From Ignavibacteria bacterium (GTDB lineage Bacteria > Bacteroidota > Ignavibacteria > Tepidaquicellales > OLB5), in assembly GCA_020852705.1 (NCBI GenBank), contig JADZAP010000036.1, positions 95,045 through 159,044 on the forward strand: a DNA stretch of 64,000 bases, written 5' to 3'. A program made the position numbers and the translations under genes. Positions 4,687 through 41,020 of this stretch are shown here, in pieces. The notes beneath the pieces were generated by a model. That model had not been told where the DNA came from. It saw nothing but the letters and a program-made list of their open reading frames with translations, and did no database searches. How positions within the stretch are numbered: the stretch's first letter is position 1; every line of letters begins with the position of its first letter.

Positions 4687-6000
4687 ATGAAACAGATAAA
4701 TTTTAAGCAAATTATCTCTTTATTGATCTTACAGATAATTTTATTTTTTTCTTCAGGATGTTTTGATGTTAAACGTGAAATTCAAATGAACCCCGATGGA
4801 AGCGGAATGGAAAATATTTATGTTACCCTTGATAAAGAATTTTTTGAACGTATGACAACACTTGCTCAAAGTGATGTATCAGGTAAGTGGAAAAATAGAG
4901 CTGATAGCTTAAACAACGATGCAATGATTGAAGCCCATATTAATGCCGATATGATGCGTATTGGAGGAACTTCGGTAAAAGAAATTAAAGTAACTTCAAA
5001 TCCGGATGGCACGAAGGATATATATTTGCAGTATCATTTTGATGACCCCCAAGTTCTGCTTAAAGTTGAAAAAGAATGCACCTACGCATGGTCAAATCAG
5101 CTTAATGTATGGTTTTCAACTCTCAGGTTCCAGTATGAAGAAGATGATCTTCTGTTTAAGCTTACAACCCGTAAAGCCGAGCGAAGCTTTAATGATGAAC
5201 TTATGAATTCTGTTTTTAGCCCTATGTACCCAAATAAAAAACTTACTTATGTAATTACATTTCCATTTGATGTTAAAGAATCAAATGCATCAATTTCTTC
5301 AGGCAGAACGCTGACCTGGGATATGTCCTTTGAAACAATTATGTTCAATCAGCAGATAGATACTGCTTCGCTTGTTAAAGATCCTTCTTTAGAGCTTACC
5401 TATGCTGAAAAAATTGACCGCTCTGTAGGTAAGGTTAGCCAGAAAGATAACCCTTTAATACGAGTACAGGTTTATAACCGCAACAAAGAACCTGTTAAAA
5501 TTGGTACAGGTGTTGTTCTTAAAGATGGCTTACTTGTAACTAATTTTCAGCTAATGAATCTTATTGAAGGTGCAGGATATTTTAGTGTTATTTTGCCAAG
5601 TGACTCACTTGCCGGCATTGATGATATGAAAGAAAATGACCTTGATCAGAAACAGGATCTTGTATTTTTAAGATACGGCTCAGCGGATAAATTTAAACCA
5701 ATTAAATATGCTTCTGTTTCATCGGTTAAATATGGTGATAAGGTAAAACTGTTTTACTATCCAAATACATTATCATCTGTTGTTTACTCTATGGATGGAG
5801 TGATGACCGCATCAAAAAAATGGACAAAAAATACCGGCATAATTGAAATTAAACCTAACAAACCAATTTCACTTGAGGGCGGTGCGGTATTTACTGAAGC
5901 AGGAGATTTTTTGGGAATGATAACAAAAGCGTATGAGGGCGAAGTAGGAAAAATTTATCTTGTACCTGCTGAATATATTAAAGCACAAATACCAAAATAG
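4687..6000 (+). CDS. Lipoprotein with inactive trypsin-like (S1) domain
   Basis: 437 aa. The N-terminal hydrophobic segment ends FFSSGC, so Cys25 is the likely lipidated residue. Residues 26-240 form a DGSG-containing domain (MNPDGSGMENIYVT) that I do not recognise. Residues about 265-437 look like an HtrA/trypsin-type fold: GTGVVLKDGLLVTN, DLVFLRY, LEGGAVF. The catalytic triad is lost: the His position of TNAHVV reads Q288 and the Ser position of GNSGGP reads E397, while Asp324 remains. It is probably a surface binding or scaffold protein. Strong hairpins follow the stop. Confidence 0.65.
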   Translation: MKQINFKQIISLLILQIILFFSSGCFDVKREIQMNPDGSGMENIYVTLDKEFFERMTTLAQSDVSGKWKNRADSLNNDAMIEAHINADMMRIGGTSVKEIKVTSNPDGTKDIYLQYHFDDPQVLLKVEKECTYAWSNQLNVWFSTLRFQYEEDDLLFKLTTRKAERSFNDELMNSVFSPMYPNKKLTYVITFPFDVKESNASISSGRTLTWDMSFETIMFNQQIDTASLVKDPSLELTYAEKIDRSVGKVSQKDNPLIRVQVYNRNKEPVKIGTGVVLKDGLLVTNFQLMNLIEGAGYFSVILPSDSLAGIDDMKENDLDQKQDLVFLRYGSADKFKPIKYASVSSVKYGDKVKLFYYPNTLSSVVYSMDGVMTASKKWTKNTGIIEIKPNKPISLEGGAVFTEAGDFLGMITKAYEGEVGKIYLVPAEYIKAQIPK

Positions 6001-6017
6001 TGTTTTAACCCCCTACG

Positions 6018-6037
6018 GTCAGTTCTGAAGAACTGAC
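6018..6037. repeat. Perfect hairpin downstream of the lipoprotein gene
   Basis: GTCAGTTC (6018-6025) pairs with GAACTGAC (6030-6037) around TGAA. There is no T-run, so this is not the terminator. It is the first of several short palindromes packed in 6015-6150. Confidence 0.6.
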
Positions 6038-6081
6038 ATGAGCACGATTAATGTGCCAAATCAATGGAACTGAAAAATCGA

Positions 6082-6110
6082 AAGGTCAGGCAATCACCTG
6101 ACCTTTTTGT
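6082..6110 (+). terminator. Rho-independent terminator
   Basis: AAGGTCAGG (6082-6090) pairs with CCTGACCTT (6097-6105) around CAATCA, followed by further T residues. It ends the gap-to-lipoprotein transcription block on the plus strand, ahead of the convergent paa operon. Confidence 0.8.
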
Positions 6111-6117
6111 ATTTCTG

Positions 6118-6149
6118 TTCCCGTAAGGTCCTTTGACCTGATGGGAGAA
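6118..6149. repeat. Palindromic element with CCGTAAGGTCCTTTGACCT core
   Basis: TTCCC...AGGTC-CTTT-GACCT...GGGAGAA is an imperfect palindrome. Its core closely matches, on the opposite strand, the insert inside the repeat array at 40988-41011 (CCATAAGAGTCCTTCGGACC). Two copies 35 kb apart suggest a small dispersed repeat family. Confidence 0.5.
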
Positions 6150-6190
6150 TAACTATAGATTTTTATACAAAAAGTAAACTATTATATAAA

Positions 6191-6712
6191 TTATCCCACC
6201 GGCTTAAACTGTTCAAAAGCGTTCAGGCAGTCATTGCAGTAATGCAGTGAGCGGCATAAAGTGGGTCCAAACGGACTCTTTAATATAGTATTAGAACTTC
6301 CGCATAATGGACACGCCGCTTTACTTATCATTTCTATTTGAACTATATCATTATGCCGCGGAGGAGGTGCTAAACCATGCTTCTTCAGTCCCTCCAGCCC
6401 GTTTTCTGTTATCATATTTGAATTCCACTGAGTATCAAAGTTTGTAGTAATTTCAACACTTTTAACATTAAGTTCTTTAATTTTATCTCTTACCATATTT
6501 TCCATTATTTTTAATGCAGGGCATCCGCTGAATGTAGGTGTCATTAAAACTTTTACATTATTTTCATCATCAATTTCAACTTTCCTTATTATACCAAGAT
6601 CAACCACACTTATTGTCGGAATTTCGGGATCCATCACATCTTCTAAAGCTTCAACTATATCATCTTTGGTGATAGTCTCTTTTTCAATATTTACTAATGT
6701 ATTAAATCTCAT
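6191..6712 (-). CDS. paaD: 1,2-phenylacetyl-CoA epoxidase subunit PaaD
   Basis: 173 aa. The MIP18/DUF59-type domain shows DPEIPTISVVDLGIIR and the TFSGCPAL cysteine motif. A C-terminal cysteine-rich module (CPLCGSSN ... CRSLHYCNDCL) is typical of PaaD/PaaJ. PaaD is thought to help assemble metal cofactors of the ring-epoxidising complex. It is the last gene of the paa operon here, 43 nt after paaC. No paaE reductase lies in the window. Confidence 0.93.
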   Translation of the reverse strand: MRFNTLVNIEKETITKDDIVEALEDVMDPEIPTISVVDLGIIRKVEIDDENNVKVLMTPTFSGCPALKIMENMVRDKIKELNVKSVEITTNFDTQWNSNMITENGLEGLKKHGLAPPPRHNDIVQIEMISKAACPLCGSSNTILKSPFGPTLCRSLHYCNDCLNAFEQFKPVG

Positions 6713-6755
6713 TTTTTGCTGTCATTTAATTTGCAAATTGCTGATTGATTTCTTT

Positions 6756-7526
6756 TTACCATTCTGCCCTGGGGTCAAGTCTGAATACTTCACCCATTTC
6801 ATTCAATAATGGTTCAAGATATTCGGTATGATTTCCTTTTCTTCCGCCGTATACCGGTTTCCAATTTGATTTATCTGGCAAAATAAGATTTGCTGCTTTA
6901 ATCCTGGGAGTAACTGATTCAATCCATTTTTCCTGCAATATGTTTTCACCCGCAAAAATATTCATCTTTTTCAAAGATTCTTCGTTGCCGCTTTCTTCAA
7001 ATATCCCAAGAGCAAGGTTAAATGTTTCGTTAAGTGCCTTCTGCATTCTTGTATTGCTTTCATCATTTGCCCTGCCTAACTGATTTATCCATGTATCGCT
7101 GTGCATTGTGTGATATTTGATTTCTCCCCTGTACTTTTTTGCAAGATTTGCAAGCGGCTCAAATGATGATTCCGAAAGCATTTCAAATCTAATTTGTTCA
7201 GCATGATTAAAAAGAAAATTCCGCATCAGACTGAAATCATATTCGCCAATTGGATATTCAGTTAAATGTGAGCAATTAAACTCTGCTGCAGGTCGTGTAA
7301 ACGCTATTGTATCTGCATCAGCTTCGCCAAGTGTGTGAAGTATTTCATATATATGCTGCGACTGCCCAATTTTATCCTGTGCTATTGAAGAAAATGCAAT
7401 ATCCTCTTCAACCAGCGGACCCAATCCAGTCCATTCGCTGTTCCTGTGTCCTATTATCAGTTGATCATCAGCAATTTTATATAAAAATTCCTTAATTTCA
7501 TTTAGCTGTTTATCGCTATAGTTCAT
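6756..7526 (-). CDS. paaC: 1,2-phenylacetyl-CoA epoxidase subunit PaaC
   Basis: 256 aa, the ferritin-like structural partner of PaaA. Family features include QLIIGHRNSEWTGLGP near the N-terminus and YHTMHSDTWINQLGRANDES. PaaC adopts the di-iron helical fold but acts as scaffold, pairing with PaaA in the heterodimer core. The start codon directly abuts the paaB stop codon, indicating tight co-translation. Length is normal. Confidence 0.95.
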   Translation of the reverse strand: MNYSDKQLNEIKEFLYKIADDQLIIGHRNSEWTGLGPLVEEDIAFSSIAQDKIGQSQHIYEILHTLGEADADTIAFTRPAAEFNCSHLTEYPIGEYDFSLMRNFLFNHAEQIRFEMLSESSFEPLANLAKKYRGEIKYHTMHSDTWINQLGRANDESNTRMQKALNETFNLALGIFEESGNEESLKKMNIFAGENILQEKWIESVTPRIKAANLILPDKSNWKPVYGGRKGNHTEYLEPLLNEMGEVFRLDPRAEW

Positions 7527-7943
7527 TTAATCAGACTCCTTCTTTTTTCTTCTGTCTTCCTTGCGGTCTTTTATACCATGCTCCTGCTGGTACTTTCTGA
7601 TTCTATCCATACAATAATAATCACTTGCTTCGCGGTATGTTTTTTCTGGTGTTGTTAAAAATATATCTGCATCTTCATAAAGTGATGCTGTTACATCCTT
7701 TGATCTAACAACCCACAAATTTGCGGTCTGCCTTCTTCTGCCAAATGCTTCCTTTGCCATAATAAGTGCAAGCTCTGGGTTTGCTGCATGAACTATCCCC
7801 GTATGTATATGCTGGTCCCCCCGCTTTTTCTGATGAAATACTTCGTATGTTTCCCATTCTTCAAGTGCATGTAATATTTCTTTCCCGTCCTTATTTTCAG
7901 GCAGATCAAGTCTGTTTATTCTGGGATCTATTGATTTTTTCAT
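7527..7943 (-). CDS. paaB: 1,2-phenylacetyl-CoA epoxidase subunit PaaB
   Basis: 138 aa, slightly longer than the roughly 95-residue E. coli PaaB because of a C-terminal Lys/Arg-rich tail (KDRKEDRRKKKESD). The core WETYEVFHQKKRGDQHIHTG, HAANPELALIMAKEAFGRR and LWVVRS motifs are present. PaaB bridges PaaA-PaaC dimers in the complex. Its ATG lies only 4 nt from the end of the inverted-repeat element at 7948-8397, and there is no clear Shine-Dalgarno. Translation may therefore depend on the structure of that insert (inference). Confidence 0.94.
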   Translation of the reverse strand: MKKSIDPRINRLDLPENKDGKEILHALEEWETYEVFHQKKRGDQHIHTGIVHAANPELALIMAKEAFGRRRQTANLWVVRSKDVTASLYEDADIFLTTPEKTYREASDYYCMDRIRKYQQEHGIKDRKEDRRKKKESD

Positions 7944-7947
7944 ATTG

Positions 7948-7974
7948 CAAATTTTAAATTACAGATTTCAGATT
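7948..7974. repeat. Left terminal inverted repeat of the insert in the paa operon
   Basis: The 27-bp arm contains AATTACAGATTTCAGATT. Its reverse complement matches 8371-8397 at 23 of 27 positions, including an 18-bp block with one mismatch. The arm lies between the stop of the four-helix-bundle gene (7976) and the paaB start (7943). Confidence 0.7.
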
Positions 7975-7975
7975 A

Positions 7976-8347
7976 CTAATTATTGTAATTTTTTAAATAT
8001 TGGGTAAATCCGAATAATTGTTTAGAAAGGGAAGATACTTTTTCATATAAAAAGGAATACCTATCTTCTTCAATAAACTCTATCCTTACGAGTAAATTTA
8101 ACATATTTCTGACTTCACCTGTTGAACCTTTTGAATATCTTAAAAATTTTATGAAATCCTTTTTGTTATCATATTCAAAACCTTCAGCTATATTATTAGA
8201 AATTGAAACAGCTGCTCTGGTTAATTGATCCTTTAATCCGTAATCTTTTGATAGTTTTCCCTGTGAAGTTAATTCATAAACATAAACTGATATATCTAAT
8301 GCATTTTTGTAAACTTCTAAATCTTCAAATCTTTGTATCTTTGTCAT
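7976..8347 (-). CDS. Four-helix-bundle protein, 23S rRNA intervening-sequence (S23) family
   Basis: 123 aa with the hallmark stretches FEDLEVYKNALD, QLTRAAVSISNNIAEGFEY and KFLRYSKGSTGEVR. The family is best known from genes lodged inside 23S rRNA intervening sequences and also occurs singly in Bacteroidota chromosomes; its biochemical role is not settled. Here it sits on the same strand between paaA and paaB. It is bounded by 27-bp imperfect inverted repeats at 7948-7974 and 8371-8397 that would form a stem in the paa mRNA. It has no plausible part in phenylacetate breakdown and looks like an inserted element. Confidence 0.9.
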   Translation of the reverse strand: MTKIQRFEDLEVYKNALDISVYVYELTSQGKLSKDYGLKDQLTRAAVSISNNIAEGFEYDNKKDFIKFLRYSKGSTGEVRNMLNLLVRIEFIEEDRYSFLYEKVSSLSKQLFGFTQYLKNYNN

Positions 8348-8370
8348 TATATATTGTAAGTTATTTTATA

Positions 8371-8397
8371 AATCTGCAATCTGTAATTAGAAATATG
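8371..8397. repeat. Right terminal inverted repeat of the insert in the paa operon
   Basis: AATCTGCAATCTGTAATT and the following 9 nt pair with 7948-7974 (23/27). The arm ends 10 nt from the paaA stop codon (8408-8410), so the element spans essentially the entire paaA-paaB spacer. Confidence 0.7.
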
Positions 8398-8407
8398 TAA
8401 TCTGCTA

Positions 8408-9397
8408 TCACGCAAGCGGTACAGTATATTTTGAATCAGCTTTAATTAATGCTCTGCGAACCCATGCACCTCTTTCTACAGCCCACCTTCTTACTTGAAG
8501 ACGCTCTTTGTTGCATGGACCATCTCCGTTGATAACTCGTTTAAATTCTTCCCAGTCAGGCTCAGTATATTCCCACTTTCCGGTTTTTTCGTTCTTCTTT
8601 AATTTTTGGTCAGGTATAGTTAAACCAAGATCCCAAATTTTAGGTACATATTCGTCAAGAAAGCGTTCACGCATATCATCGTTTGTTGCCATTTTAACTT
8701 TCCACCTCATCAATATTTCGGTGTGGTCACTTATCTTATCCGGCGGTCCATGGAAATGCATTATTGGCTGCCACCAGCGATTAAGTGCTTCCTGTACCAT
8801 TTCTCTCTGTTGAGGTGTACCGGTTGCAAGAAATACTACATTATCATGTCCGTATTTTAAATGGAAAGATTCCTCACTGCAAATTCTTTCTAATGCCCGG
8901 CAATAAGGTCCGTATGAACCTTTAGAGTTTGTAACCTGATTAATTATTGCCCCCGCATCAATTAACCATGAAATTATGGCTGTATCAGCCCATGTTAAAG
9001 CCGGATAATTGAATACATTGGAGTACTTTGATTTTCCGTTGATAAGATCATTTAACATATTTTCACGGGTTTTGCCTAAGGTTTCTGCTGCACTGTATAA
9101 TAGCTGTGCATGACCTACTTCATCCTGCACTTTTGCCATTAATGCAAGTTTTCTTCTAAAACCCGGTGCACGGGTTATCCATGTGCCTTCTGGCAGTGCA
9201 CCTACTATTTCACTGTGTGCATGCTGCTCTATCATGCGGATAAGCTGTTTGCGGTATGCCTTGGGCATCCAGTCTTTGGGTTCAATCTTTTCTCCTGCAG
9301 CAATTCTTGCTTCAAATTCTGCAAGTTTCTGCGGGTCTTCACCTTCTAAAAGACTTTTAGCTTTATCCGATAATTCTATATAAGTGTTTCCGTACAT
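8408..9397 (-). CDS. paaA: 1,2-phenylacetyl-CoA epoxidase catalytic subunit PaaA
   Basis: 329 aa. PaaA is the di-iron subunit that epoxidises the aromatic ring of phenylacetyl-CoA. Ferritin-like iron-ligand motifs [13 protein letters not shown] and [12 protein letters not shown] are present, as is the family stretch [20 protein letters not shown]. The C-terminal WEFKRV...[17 protein letters not shown] region is typical. It is the first structural gene after the TetR gene, with a 90-nt spacer carrying an inverted repeat (9427-9455). It is split from paaB by the S23-type insert. Confidence 0.96.
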
Positions 9398-9426
9398 AAA
9401 TTTAAAGTTTAAATTATATTTTTCTT

Positions 9427-9455
9427 ATACTAAACTTGTTTCAGATATTTAGTAT
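9427..9455. promoter_or_regulatory. Inverted repeat between tetR and paaA
   Basis: ATACTAAA (9427-9434) and TTTAGTAT (9448-9455) are perfect 8-bp arms with a 13-nt spacer, in the leader of paaA. It does not match the CTAAC/GTTAG operator at 10079-10094. It could be an RNA stem affecting paaA expression or another protein site; no function is shown. Confidence 0.35.
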
Positions 9456-9487
9456 TAATATTTTAAGATGCTGAAAAAAAATGAAAC

Positions 9488-10072
9488 TTACATAACCGGC
9501 TTAACTTCTAACCCTGAGGTTATAAATTTGTATAAATGTTCTGATATTTCATCAGGTGTCATACTACCATTTGGATTGTACCATTCTGTTACCCAGTTTA
9601 CTGCACTTAGTATTGTAAGAACAGCAAACTTTTTATCGTGTGCTTTAAAAACATTTTCATTTTCGCCATTAATTAAAATTTGAGTGAATCCAAATTCATA
9701 TTTATTTCTTAACTTTATAAAATCGCTTTTTCTCGGCTCTTGCAATCTGCGCCAATCACGAAGAAAAACTGTTGAAGAATCCATATCACCCGTAATTATT
9801 TTAATGTGATTTTTAATTGCCGTAGCTAATTTTTCTTCTGCGTTAAAATACAAATCATTAACTTCATCAATTGCTCTCAGCAATTCATCTGCCATTCTAA
9901 AACATATAGTTTCTAATAGTTCATCTTTGCTTTTTATATGGCTGTAAAGACTTGCAGCTTCTATTCCAAGCATTTTAGCTAACTCACGCATGGTTGATGC
10001 TTCGTAACCCTTTTTCCTGAAAAGTTTTGCGGCAGCTTTAAAAATTTGTTCTTTCCTTGATGAATACTCCAT
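9488..10072 (-). CDS. TetR-family regulator, probable PaaR-type repressor
   Basis: 194 aa. The N-terminal helix-turn-helix is clear (ILKAAAKLFR-type helix, YEASTMRELAKMLGIEAASLYSHIKSK). The C-terminal ligand domain is variable, as usual. It is the first gene of the paa operon on the same strand. Its ATG is 7 nt from an operator-like palindrome at 10079-10094, directly after the -7 box of the promoter at 10095-10125. The arrangement implies autorepression relieved by phenylacetyl-CoA or a related acyl-CoA (inference from the family). Confidence 0.85.
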   Translation of the reverse strand: MEYSSRKEQIFKAAAKLFRKKGYEASTMRELAKMLGIEAASLYSHIKSKDELLETICFRMADELLRAIDEVNDLYFNAEEKLATAIKNHIKIITGDMDSSTVFLRDWRRLQEPRKSDFIKLRNKYEFGFTQILINGENENVFKAHDKKFAVLTILSAVNWVTEWYNPNGSMTPDEISEHLYKFITSGLEVKPVM

Positions 10073-10078
10073 AGGTAA

Positions 10079-10094
10079 CCTAACGATAGTTAGG
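10079..10094 (-). promoter_or_regulatory. Probable PaaR-type operator
   Basis: The palindrome CCTAAC-GATA-GTTAGG lies between the -7 box and the tetR start codon, over the expected transcription start. The inner CTAACGATAGTTAG agrees at all but one defined position with CNAACGNNCGTTNG, the PaaR consensus I recall from Thermus. Occupancy would block initiation of the tetR-paa transcript. Confidence 0.6.
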
Positions 10095-10125
10095 CAAATT
10101 TAATAAATTCAGTTTATATATGCAA
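10095..10125 (-). promoter_or_regulatory. Bacteroidota-type promoter of the tetR-paaABCD operon
   Basis: Read on the minus strand: TTG (10125-10123), exactly 20 nt, then TAAATTTG (10102-10095). The -7 box directly abuts the operator, and transcription should start about 15 nt before the tetR ATG. A perfect 8-bp-arm palindrome (CAAGGATT-GA-AATCCTTG, 10123-10140) overlaps the -33 element and may be a second regulatory site. Confidence 0.65.
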
Positions 10126-10140
10126 GGATTGAAATCCTTG
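10123..10140. promoter_or_regulatory. Palindrome overlapping the -33 element of the paa promoter
   Basis: CAAGGATT (10123-10130) and AATCCTTG (10133-10140) are perfect inverted arms two bases apart. The position at -33 suits an activator or second repressor, but the binding protein is unknown. Confidence 0.4.
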
Positions 10141-10254
10141 ATTTTTCTTATACATATAAAATTGTCCAAAATTTTAACTTTTTGAATGTAAAAATTTGGA
10201 AATTTTTTAAATCAGGGAAATAATTATTATAAATATTAATTTAAATTTGTAAAG

Positions 10255-10332
10255 AGTTTGGAAAGAAGAAGCAGCATAAATTGTACTTTACTTTAATTAA
10301 ATAATATGTACAATATATATATTTTCCAAACT
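10255..10332. repeat. Nested inverted repeats downstream of the MATE gene
   Basis: Outer arms AGTTTGGAAA (10255-10264) and TTTCCAAACT (10323-10332) are perfect. Inner arms ATTGTAC (10280-10286) and GTACAAT (10308-10314) are also perfect. The structure ends 5 nt from the MATE stop codon, so it would fold in the 3' end of the MATE transcript. It lacks a clear T-run and may be a 3' stabiliser or a small dispersed element. Confidence 0.45.
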
Positions 10333-10336
10333 AACT

Positions 10337-11734
10337 TTAATGAATTTCAAATTTCTCAATTGGTGATTCAATCGGTTCAGCAGTTCTTTTGCCTAATACA
10401 AACTTTCTGTTTTTCCACCTGCCTAATCGCCACCATAGTGCAATCAATATTCCTTTTGCTATTGTAGTAGCAAAAATGGCAATCCAGATACCGTTCATTC
10501 CATAAACCGGAGCAAGTATTGCGGCAAGGGGAATCCTTAATGCAGTTACAGGCAGATAAATAGCAAGAGGAGGCAAAGAATTTCCTGAACCCGCAAATGC
10601 ACCAGAAAATATCTGCTCGCTCATAGAAAAAAATATACTGAACGCAGCTATTATATTATATACTTTTACAGTTTCAATTACTGCCTTGTCAGTCGTAAAT
10701 ATTCCTGCAATTTGAGAAGGGAAAATAAACAGCATCACACTATATACTGCCATTGGTATCCATGAAATTAACAATATACGCCATGCACCCTTATTTGCTC
10801 GGTCATAGTTTCCGGCACCAATGTTTTGACCTACTAAAATTGAAGCAGTAACCGCAAATGCTTCGCCAACCTGATAGGGGATAGCTTCGGAACGGTGACC
10901 AATACCAAGTGCTGCCAGACCCGTTGTTCCAAAATCTGATACGTACCGGCTTACAAATACATATATGAATGAAAATGCCAAACCTTCCAAAGAAAGGGGT
11001 AATCCTATTTTTATAGTTTCTTTTGTAACCTTGCTGTTATATTTTAAATCCTTTATTATCTTTGTGAATTTTTTCTGTACCGAACTTATATATCCGCGTT
11101 TTTTATGCAGAATAAACATGACCAAAAAAACACAGCCGTAGGAAACCATTGTTGCTGTAGAAGCCCCGCGAATTCCCATTTTAAATGTAAATATTAAAAG
11201 CGGTGAAAGAATTATTTTTAAACCAAATACAACAAGCAGCAATTTAAATGGTGTTTTTGTATCACCGTGACCGCGGAAAATTGCACTGCCTGTTTCAAAT
11301 AAAATTATTGCAGGAAGTAGTACAATTATCGGGAATAAATATTCATTTGCAAGAACAGACTTTGGTGTATCAAGATTTGTGAAATTATATAATAAAGGAA
11401 GCAATGGTATCATAATTACCGCTATAATAATACCCCATATAACCGAATTTATAAGATTTAATGTACCTATATGCCGTGCTGTATCTTCCTCTTTTGCCCC
11501 AATAGATTGCGATATAAGTGCATTTGTTCCAATAGGAACAAGCTCTCCCAAGGCAAACATTCCCCACGATAGAAATGTACCTACTGCAAGCGCTGCAAGA
11601 TGTTCACTTGATATTTTACCTATCCAAAATGAGTCTAATATAGAAATAGCCAGACTTCTGCCCAAATTCTGAAAAAAAACAGGCATTGCAAGTTTTATTA
11701 TCTGCCTGTTTAAATTTCCTGAGGTTGTTAGCAA
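10337..11734 (-). CDS. MATE-family multidrug/cation antiporter
   Basis: 465 aa with a TTG start, about 12 hydrophobic segments in two similar halves. Family signs include the N-terminal LAMPVFFQNLGRSLAISILDSFWIG, GTNALISQSIGA and the second-half GLPLSLEGLAFSF and VGQNIGAGN. MATE proteins export organic cations or drugs in exchange for Na+ or H+ across the inner membrane; the substrate here is unknown. The next gene downstream on this strand is tetR of the paa operon, but that has its own promoter. Confidence 0.9.
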   Translation of the reverse strand: MLTTSGNLNRQIIKLAMPVFFQNLGRSLAISILDSFWIGKISSEHLAALAVGTFLSWGMFALGELVPIGTNALISQSIGAKEEDTARHIGTLNLINSVIWGIIIAVIMIPLLPLLYNFTNLDTPKSVLANEYLFPIIVLLPAIILFETGSAIFRGHGDTKTPFKLLLVVFGLKIILSPLLIFTFKMGIRGASTATMVSYGCVFLVMFILHKKRGYISSVQKKFTKIIKDLKYNSKVTKETIKIGLPLSLEGLAFSFIYVFVSRYVSDFGTTGLAALGIGHRSEAIPYQVGEAFAVTASILVGQNIGAGNYDRANKGAWRILLISWIPMAVYSVMLFIFPSQIAGIFTTDKAVIETVKVYNIIAAFSIFFSMSEQIFSGAFAGSGNSLPPLAIYLPVTALRIPLAAILAPVYGMNGIWIAIFATTIAKGILIALWWRLGRWKNRKFVLGKRTAEPIESPIEKFEIH

Positions 11735-12290: not shown

Positions 12291-12614
12291 TTATTTAGGA
12301 AATTGACCATTTAAAACTCTTTTAAATCCTTTAAATCCTTGAACTAACAATGGTACATTAAAGTTTATCATAACACCTAGTTTTTTCCCTGATAATTTCA
12401 AATAAGTCATTGCATGAGCTTTATGAATAGGTAATATCTTTTCTACGGTTTTTAGTTCAACAATTACTTCATTTTCAACTATCAGATCAATATTGAAATT
12501 TTTATCTAATTTTTCACCATTATAATATACAGGTTGAATAACCTGAGATTCAGAATGAAATCCTCTGATTTTAAGTTCTTTTATTAAACAAGTTTCATAA
12601 ATTGATTCTAACAA
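12291..12614 (-). CDS. GxxExxY protein (PD-(D/E)XK-like), N-terminus disrupted
   Basis: 107 aa if read from TTG 12614. The core is typical: LLESIYETCL, IDLIVENEVIVELK (the PD-(D/E)XK-like D...ExK) and HKAHAMTYLKLSGKKLG. The name-giving Gly of GxxExxY and a homologous helix (AAIEVHKNLGPG) lie upstream in the same open frame. The natural ATG is at 12728-12726, overlapping the mutS stop as ATGA, but TAG at 12710-12708 interrupts at codon 7. No ATG, GTG or TTG restarts before the conserved region. It is either a decaying gene or starts at a rare codon (CTG 12704 or ATT 12698). Role unknown. Confidence 0.6.
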   Translation of the reverse strand: MLESIYETCLIKELKIRGFHSESQVIQPVYYNGEKLDKNFNIDLIVENEVIVELKTVEKILPIHKAHAMTYLKLSGKKLGVMINFNVPLLVQGFKGFKRVLNGQFPK

Positions 12615-12724
12615 TCCCGGTCCCAGGTTTTTATGTACTTCTATTGCTGCATCTATAATTGCTCCGCTGATTTTATTTAATTTATTAACATATTCAATAC
12701 TCAGTGTCTATGTTTCTTTGTTGT

Positions 12725-39846: not shown

Positions 39847-40346
39847 TTATATAAATTTTTGTTATGCTATTTTAACAAGCTCCACACATCTCTAATTAAG
39901 AGGAGGGAGGTCAGTAGTCTATTTGTTAAGATGAGGTCTGAAATGGTATTTCAAAATTTGGTAATTTGTATTATAATAATCTTATGACCTCACACTCCAT
40001 CTCCCTCTCCTGAAAGGAGAGGGAGTGCCATGACTACAAATCTTTACTCCTCTCTCCTATAAGGAGAGGGGCAAGGGGAGAGGTATTAAACCAAACTTCT
40101 TCCTTCCTGCCGCCAGTGCAGTATTTTGGAGAAGGTGTGCCATGACTACAAATCTTTACTCCCCTCTCCTATAAGGAGAGGGGCAAGGGGAGAGGAGATA
40201 AACCAAACGCCTTCCTTCCTGCCGCCAGTGCAGTATTTAGGAGAAGGTGTGCCATGACTACAAATCTTTACTCCCCTCTCCTATAAGGAGAGGGGCAGGG
40301 GGAGAGGTGTTAAACAAACTCTCCATATAAGGAGATTGAAATATCT
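39847..40346. other. Gene-free repeat region upstream of DUF2085
   Basis: No credible open reading frame. It holds a perfect 10-bp-arm palindrome, CTCCCTCTCC-TGAAA-GGAGAGGGAG (40001-40025), then the 112-bp tandem array. It is clearly more G+C-rich than the flanking genes. An additional decayed half-palindrome, CTCC-ATATA-AGGAG, lies just before the DUF2085 start and supplies its AAGGAG. Confidence 0.7.
40025..40319. repeat. 112-bp tandem repeat, two full copies and one partial
   Basis: Units begin GTGCCATGACTACAAATC at 40025, 40137 and 40249, an exact 112-bp period twice. Each contains CTCTCCTATAAGGAGAG, a near-perfect palindrome, then GGGGCAAGGGGAGAGG and CCTGCCGCCAGTGCAG. The third copy stops after the palindromic part. 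No spacer diversity exists, so it is not a CRISPR array. Confidence 0.85.
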
Positions 40347-40878: not shown

Positions 40879-41020
40879 CTCTCCTATAAGGAGAGGGACA
40901 GGGGGAGAGGTGTTAAACCAAACTCTCCTATAAGGAGAGGGGCAGGGGGAGAGGTGTTAAACCAAACTCTCCTATAAGGAGAGGGGCAAGGTCCGAAGGA
41001 CTCTTATGGAGGGGGAGAGG
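40879..41020. repeat. 44-bp tandem repeat, three copies, last one interrupted
   Basis: CTCTCCTATAAGGAGAGG begins at 40879, 40923 and 40967, an exact 44-bp period, each followed by GGGAGAGGTGTTAAACCAAA-type sequence. The third copy is broken after GGGGCAAG by AAGGTCCGAAGGACTCTTAT, itself a palindrome related to 6118-6149, before GGGGGAGAGG resumes. The core palindrome is the same as in the 112-bp array. Confidence 0.85.

Follow-up and report, generated by a model that had tools for sequence, protein, structure and literature searches.

An S23 gene between inverted tandem-repeat arms at the paaA-paaB junction, a candidate mobile cassette of bacterial operons

The paa operon in a 64,000-nucleotide stretch of Ignavibacteria DNA, which was analysed as a whole and is called the window here, raises the question of how a small gene of another family came to stand between paaA and paaB and how the operon tolerates it. 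On the minus strand, the genes of the operon run paaA, S23, paaB, paaC and paaD. The upstream host gene, paaA (8408..9397, minus strand), encodes a 1,2-phenylacetyl-CoA epoxidase subunit and is recognized by NCBIfam TIGR02156 (PaaA), and the downstream host gene, paaB (7527..7943, minus strand), is recognized by Pfam PF06243 (PaaB). Between them lies an intact open reading frame of 123 amino acids (7976..8347, minus strand), present in the ORF list and in the Pfam and NCBIfam profile matches. The initial annotation described it as an S23-type four-helix-bundle gene, and the profiles bear this out. It matches PF05635 over positions 1-105 of 106 (E=2e-32, 111.9 bits against a cut-off of 33.8) and TIGR02436 with 103.5 bits (cut-off 24). 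The protein belongs to the S23 / 23S_rRNA_IVP family because it matches the full-domain profile above the curated cut-off, and two relatives, 2GSC and 2RLD, have solved structures. Comparison of the window copy with those of the related genomes G005 and G012 gave dN of 0.014-0.017 against dS of 0.42-0.65, which indicates purifying selection.

The whole S23 unit is 450 nt long (7948-8397) and is bounded by two arms. In the sense orientation, the 5' arm is the heptad array CATATTTCTAATTACAGATTGCAGATT (8371..8397, minus strand), and the 3' arm is AATCTGAAATCTGTAATTTAAAATTTG (7948..7974, minus strand), which is the reverse complement of the 5' arm at 23 of 27 positions. These 27-bp inverted repeats had already been reported, with an 18-bp block (AATTACAGATTTCAGATT / AATTACAGATTGCAGATT) containing one mismatch, and the reported coordinates and counts proved exact. 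The distances of 10 nt from the paaA stop to the 5' arm and 4 nt from the 3' arm to the paaB start were likewise correct on the sequence. A repeat finder lengthens the arms to 39 nt with 79% complementarity (7941-7979 / 8366-8404), so that the extended 3' arm overlaps both the S23 stop codon and the paaB start. Each arm is a tandem array whose 7-nt unit reads CAGATTN in the 5' arm and NAATCTG in the 3' arm. This heptad composition is a feature missing from the initial annotation. A search of the 64 kb with an 18-mer of the arm, allowing up to 3 mismatches, gave three matches, all at the S23 locus, where 0.20 were expected. Elsewhere in the window, tandem repeats of 112 bp and 44 bp at 40015-40319 and 40879-40988 have the common unit CTCTCCTATAAGGAGAGGGGCA, and their copies are 92-98% identical.

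S23 proteins are widespread, and we know of no function for them outside a handful of rRNA insertions. To place the window copy among its relatives, 58 S23 genes in 13 genomes of its genus were taken together with 80 named GTDB loci from Bacteroidota, Chloroflexota, Verrucomicrobiota, Cyanobacteria, Acidobacteria, Armatimonadota, Bacillota and other phyla, and 130 loci were counted after four duplicate loci had been dropped. RNA duplex energy with 140-nt flanks is ruled by coding GC and gave weak ranks; therefore, arms were scored by locally aligning the upstream 130 nt with the reverse-complemented downstream 130 nt, with direct and reversed alignments as controls and a threshold of SW>=19. 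The mean inverted score was 21.4 in the genus and 21.5 in the GTDB loci, whereas the direct control gave 12.2 and 14.4 and the reversed control 11.4 and 11.6, respectively. Inverted arms were found at 86 of the 130 S23 loci (66%), and they were weak or absent at a third. In a set of 200 other ORFs with lengths of 90-220 aa, 11 reached the threshold, and five of these proved to be S23 or GxxExxY genes, which leaves 6 of 195 unrelated small ORFs (about 3%).

The repeat units of the arms vary widely. They include CAGATTN, GAAATAGTG, AAAAGGCAAAAGTG, GAGTGTATT and GATAGTTGACAGTT, and also AGTCGAA, CGTTTGACC, GGGGGAA and CGTTNACA. Arms differ among S23 loci within one genome as well as among phyla, and they are GC-rich in other phyla. 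The expectation that other copies would carry the same 27-bp ends was not borne out, as there are no universal ends of this kind; what is conserved across copies is the plan alone, namely short tandem repeats arrayed in inverted orientation. The 5' arm was purine-rich at 38 of 47 S23 junctions (p=2.5e-5), whatever its repeat unit. Two other origins of the arms were considered and rejected. The heptads are not a genome-wide repeat family, as few copies occur away from S23, and copying of the arms from the target site was too weakly indicated (5' spacer against downstream gene start, 8.3 versus 6.8 at other junctions, sd 2.1). Heptad arrays (CAGATTG, CAAATTTCAAATTAC) were also seen in spacers with neither S23 nor GxxExxY, at L026 (~2145-2195), L027 (~800-835) and L028 (~1225-1260), and these are possibly remnants of lost cassettes.

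The placement of the units follows operon structure. The examined flanks of S23 loci were mostly protein-coding ORFs, and both neighbours were co-directional with S23 at 114 of 130 loci, against a window background of 73%. The arms lie at the outer edges of the units: the median gap between the upstream stop and the 5' arm is -1 nt and that between the 3' arm and the following start codon is 2.5 nt, and the median gaps on the S23 side of the arms are 34 nt (5') and 9.5 nt (3'). The suggestion that the arms link the flanking genes is thus upheld in their edge placement at stop and start codons, and the genes would be brought close together in the folded mRNA. Recurrent junctions are sufB-sufC (20 Bacteroidota loci), sufA-sufB (8), paaA-paaB, carA-carB, serC-serA and znuC-znuB-like; gene names at junctions other than paa were assigned by eye from translated ends, with no profile search. 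Many Bacteroidota families carry S23 at sufB-sufC (20 loci within L105-L150), and in Flavobacterium it stands between sufA and sufB instead. Its presence at sufB-sufC and at a livH-like junction is of long standing. In Riemerella, a four-helix-bundle gene whose locus tag falls between sufA and sufB responds to iron together with both (PMC5609570), which supports their co-expression. The sufB-sufC copies comprise several S23 lineages with differing arms; therefore, this junction was probably entered more than once.

The paaA-paaB junction itself occurs in filled and empty states. It is empty in two genomes of the window's genus (G002 and G003), where the spacer TAAGGAGAAATTAATG contains an SD-like GGAG, and it holds unrelated short spacers in G007 and G010. 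It is filled by S23 in G000, G005, G012, G004 and G006 and in a member of the sister genus, G013. The S23 protein is 96-97% identical among G000, G005 and G012, and the copies of G004 and G006 are 54-57% identical to that of the window. At every filled paaA-paaB site of the genus, heptads stand in opposite sense on both sides of S23, of the type CAGATTN in G000, G005 and G012, CAGGTTN/CAAGTTN in G004 and CAAGCTN/CAGGTTN in G006, where the arms match weakly (score 11). The empty junctions that the initial annotation had expected are therefore present, and its idea of an inserted unit, weighed by sequence against flanking repeats that are not conserved and against a lack of empty sites, survived. 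More broadly, its claim that S23-type units can insert in protein operons holds, as they recur at operon junctions of which empty counterparts exist.

Divergence at the filled paa sites indicates that the cassette has a history of its own. Among G000, G005 and G012, DNA identity is 90-94% in S23 against 75-87% in paaA and paaB, and the block of high identity begins immediately past the paaA stop and ends some 30 nt inside paaB, with sharp edges. The corresponding dS is 0.40-0.65 for S23 against 1.4-2.6 for paaA and 0.9-2.1 for paaB, values that indicate a direction and give no dates because those of the neighbours are near saturation and come from metagenome assemblies. At these three sites, the synonymous divergence of the cassette is 2-4 times below that of its neighbours. 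At most other S23 junctions, the dS of S23 is similar to that of the neighbours, so that a general synonymous constraint on S23 is not the cause of the low values at the paa site. The same discordance was found between L046 and L056 (S23 dS 0.51 against 1.24-1.63), and a milder one between L049 and L058 (0.35 against 0.62-0.66). The low dS and the sharp edges of the block suggest that the paa-site cassette probably spread without its neighbours.

The window holds a second cassette-like unit, in which a GxxExxY ORF (PF13366/TIGR04256, PD-(D/E)XK; 12336..12674, minus strand) fills the mutS-tadA junction. Its arms are weak (score 10). Across the same family of genomes, 14 of 29 GxxExxY loci follow the inverted-arm plan, with the motif CACAAAG/ACGCAAAG/CACAGAG in related genomes. 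Like S23, GxxExxY is a small ORF that occupies operon junctions between inverted tandem arms, and it takes the place of S23 at carA-carB in two species, but it differs in its PD-(D/E)XK fold and its arm motif. When the nearest arm at other sites was sought, it belonged to the same cargo for 38 of 38 S23 and 12 of 14 GxxExxY units. Arm similarity between different sites also tracks S23 protein similarity (Mantel r 0.45 and 0.16), and arm motif and cargo keep a fixed orientation together.

Exchange of cargo is seen at carA-carB, which contains S23 in G008 and G001 and GxxExxY in G006 and G011. In G007, S23 is shortened to a remnant and the 5' array is kept, and the remaining genomes have empty or unrelated spacers of 17-217 nt (junction coordinates: L222 148-645, L231 1980-2479, L220 1980-2422 and L230 1980-2119). 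The znuC-znuB junction is an overlapping TGATG in G003 and a spacer of 9-10 nt in G006 and G009; it holds one S23 family in G012, G011 and G001 and an unrelated S23 family in G005. In G002 and G004 it lacks S23, and the 5' repeats resemble the G005 type and the 3' repeats the G012 type. Judged by their repeats, these mixed spacers are apparent scars of successive insertions. Repeats of CGCAGAGGCGCA are found inside the znuC-znuB spacers L214 (2010-2478) and L215 (2010-2397).

The arms of a locus are matched to each other. They fit each other better than they fit the arms of other species at the same junction, with a summed score of 1367 against 1199 +/- 28 in 2000 permutations over 66 loci (p=0.0005, uncorrected for phylogeny). 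The sufB-sufC junction alone gave 388 against 310 +/- 15 (p=0.0002), and the five paaA-paaB loci alone gave p=0.05. Such matching in cis could reflect selection for pairing, or it could arise through correction of inverted repeats at the DNA level. In the window unit, the arm-arm RNA duplex has an energy of -22.8 kcal/mol, against -7.7 +/- 2.5 for shuffled arms and a minimum of -17.9 in 300 shuffles. In predicted folds, flank-to-flank pairing at S23 loci has a median of 32 bp against 11 in controls. The sense-strand minimum free energy structure of the paaA-paaB locus lacks the full arm-arm stem, and the expected arm-arm pairs there fall from 24.7 to 5.7 when 100 nt of flanks are added. A fold z-score of -2.62 on the plus strand was discarded because it belongs to the antisense strand, and the whole unit reaches only -0.57 in the sense strand. 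Folding energy is for this reason not the main evidence.

Among known systems, the closest are the S23-encoding intervening sequences (IVSs) of 23S rRNA in Coxiella and Leptospira, which have about 430-450 nt, a terminal-repeat stem of about 28 bp and an S23 ORF in the loop. The Coxiella IVS measures 444 nt (428/444), has a 28-bp terminal stem with the S23 ORF in the loop, and is cleaved within that stem by RNase III (PMC4990558). Such IVSs are also sporadically distributed, with evidence of horizontal transfer (PMC4990558). The paaA-paaB unit has a comparable stem (23/27 bp, extended to 39 nt at 79%). However, it lies outside rRNA, at the stop/start junction of a protein operon; the arms of operon units are inverted tandem-repeat arrays that vary by lineage; and its S23 ORF is intact and under purifying selection, whereas the Coxiella IVS ORF is decaying. 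The initial comparison with an IVS-type element thus stands for the architecture (size, stem and S23 ORF) and does not extend to location in rRNA. The protein is filed as S23, and the unit is described as working like an IVS without being placed in the rRNA IVS class, since it lies outside rRNA and its excision by RNase III is a possibility by analogy.

The S23 family has also been described as a homologue of Avd of diversity-generating retroelements (PMC10053308). No parts of such retroelements stand beside S23, whose immediate neighbours are paaA and paaB. A defence or phage origin was rejected, as PADLOC gave no match and PHROGs gave only a weak Avd match (E=0.006). The units resemble MITEs and other non-autonomous inverted-repeat elements in their short length, inverted ends, lack of a transposase and presence/absence polymorphism, but their ends vary between copies, they carry a conserved ORF, and they are precisely placed at operon stop/start positions. 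Conservation of ends of the transposon type is absent both within one genome and between phyla, and neither a transposition enzyme nor an excision product was seen. By inspection, filled and empty sites show no clear target-site duplication; the insertion replaces the spacer of the empty site. Rfam gave no relevant match (group I/II intron, riboswitch etc.) at 6000-11000. The open-access literature yielded no account of S23 units flanked by inverted arms within protein operons, and a paywalled one could exist.

Together with these data, it can be proposed, with a probability of roughly 0.6, that the unit is a horizontally mobile intercistronic cassette in which an S23 ORF lies between inverted tandem-repeat arms and an mRNA stem makes the insertion tolerable. 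The anatomy of the cassette, its recurrence across phyla and its filled, empty, scar and alternative-cargo states are features of the compared sequences, as are the cis-matching of arms, the linkage of arm motif with cargo and, probably, transfer without neighbours. From these we infer RNA processing and a role for the S23 protein. In the operon mRNA, base pairing of the arms would form a stem and leave the S23 message as its loop. The foot of this stem would hold the paaA stop and the paaB start some 14 nt from each other, a spacing like that of the tight, empty junctions, and ribosomes could pass from paaA to paaB across the stem foot. By restoring tight stop-start spacing, the stem would make the insertion tolerable, and the edge positions of the arms and the co-directional bias fit this model. 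RNase III may cut the stem, by analogy with rRNA IVSs, and the shift in paaA:paaB stoichiometry proposed in the initial annotation is conjectural. The S23 protein, which is a pentameric ring in a solved relative and is related to Avd, may bind the arms or aid the spread of the cassette. As a caveat, the matching of arms could stem from quasi-palindrome correction at the DNA level and not from selection on RNA. The interpretation given in the initial annotation was right in outline and understated in scope.

Other readings share part of this evidence. The unit may be a true IVS-type RNA element, in which RNase III excises the S23 mRNA and parts the paaA mRNA from that of paaB, so that cutting and not bypass is the point. 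Its size, stem length and ORF match those of the Coxiella IVS, in which RNase III cleaves the stem (PMC4990558), and its arms are complementary in cis, but its host is an mRNA, whose cut pieces would not be held together by ribosome structure, and the AT-rich paaA-paaB stem is weak in context; we give this reading somewhat less than even odds. A DNA-level mobile element, whose arms are its ends in recombination, replication slippage or template switching and whose RNA pairing is a by-product, would account for a cassette that apparently moves alone, for an arm motif that follows its cargo in fixed orientation, for the reuse of junctions by unrelated cassettes and for scars with two arm types. 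It is nevertheless somewhat unlikely, as the arm sequence is not conserved even within one genome, unlike transposon ends, no transposase is present, and insertions keep to operon junctions and to the direction of transcription.

It is improbable that S23 is an ordinary resident operon gene, such as a chaperone or regulator of a complex, with incidental spacer repeats as its arms. Unrelated S23 families and GxxExxY share junctions across species, together with empty sites and scars, and arms occur at 66% of S23 loci against about 3% of other small ORFs. These observations are set against the long-term presence of S23 at sufB-sufC and the livH-like junction, purifying selection, and the expression of S23 alongside the suf genes (PMC5609570). 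Chance or low-complexity AT-rich sequence has a negligible probability. The window arms are indeed AT-rich tandem repeats, and similar heptads occur in a few ORF-less spacers of the same genome, but matching is inverted and not direct (21.4 vs 12.2; 21.5 vs 14.4), and the GC-rich arms of other phyla, the shuffles and the 18-mer search also speak against it. This origin was already refuted by the direct-match, GC-rich-arm and shuffle comparisons.

Returning to the mobile intercistronic cassette, we lean slightly towards a wider view in which such units form an unrecognised class of mobile cassettes that colonises operon stop/start junctions in many phyla with S23 or GxxExxY as cargo, the rRNA IVS being a special case. 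In such a class, the repeat sequence would diverge freely while the arms stay complementary, and the folded mRNA would restore gene spacing. If this is true, sufB-sufC, carA-carB and paaA-paaB would be insertion niches for RNA-compatible mobile cassettes, and a general rule of complementary arms spanning the distance between stop and start would account for the presence of a foreign gene inside a tightly coupled operon. The lineage-specific heptad and octad repeats of these spacers would likewise be explained, and the origin of rRNA IVSs would become testable.
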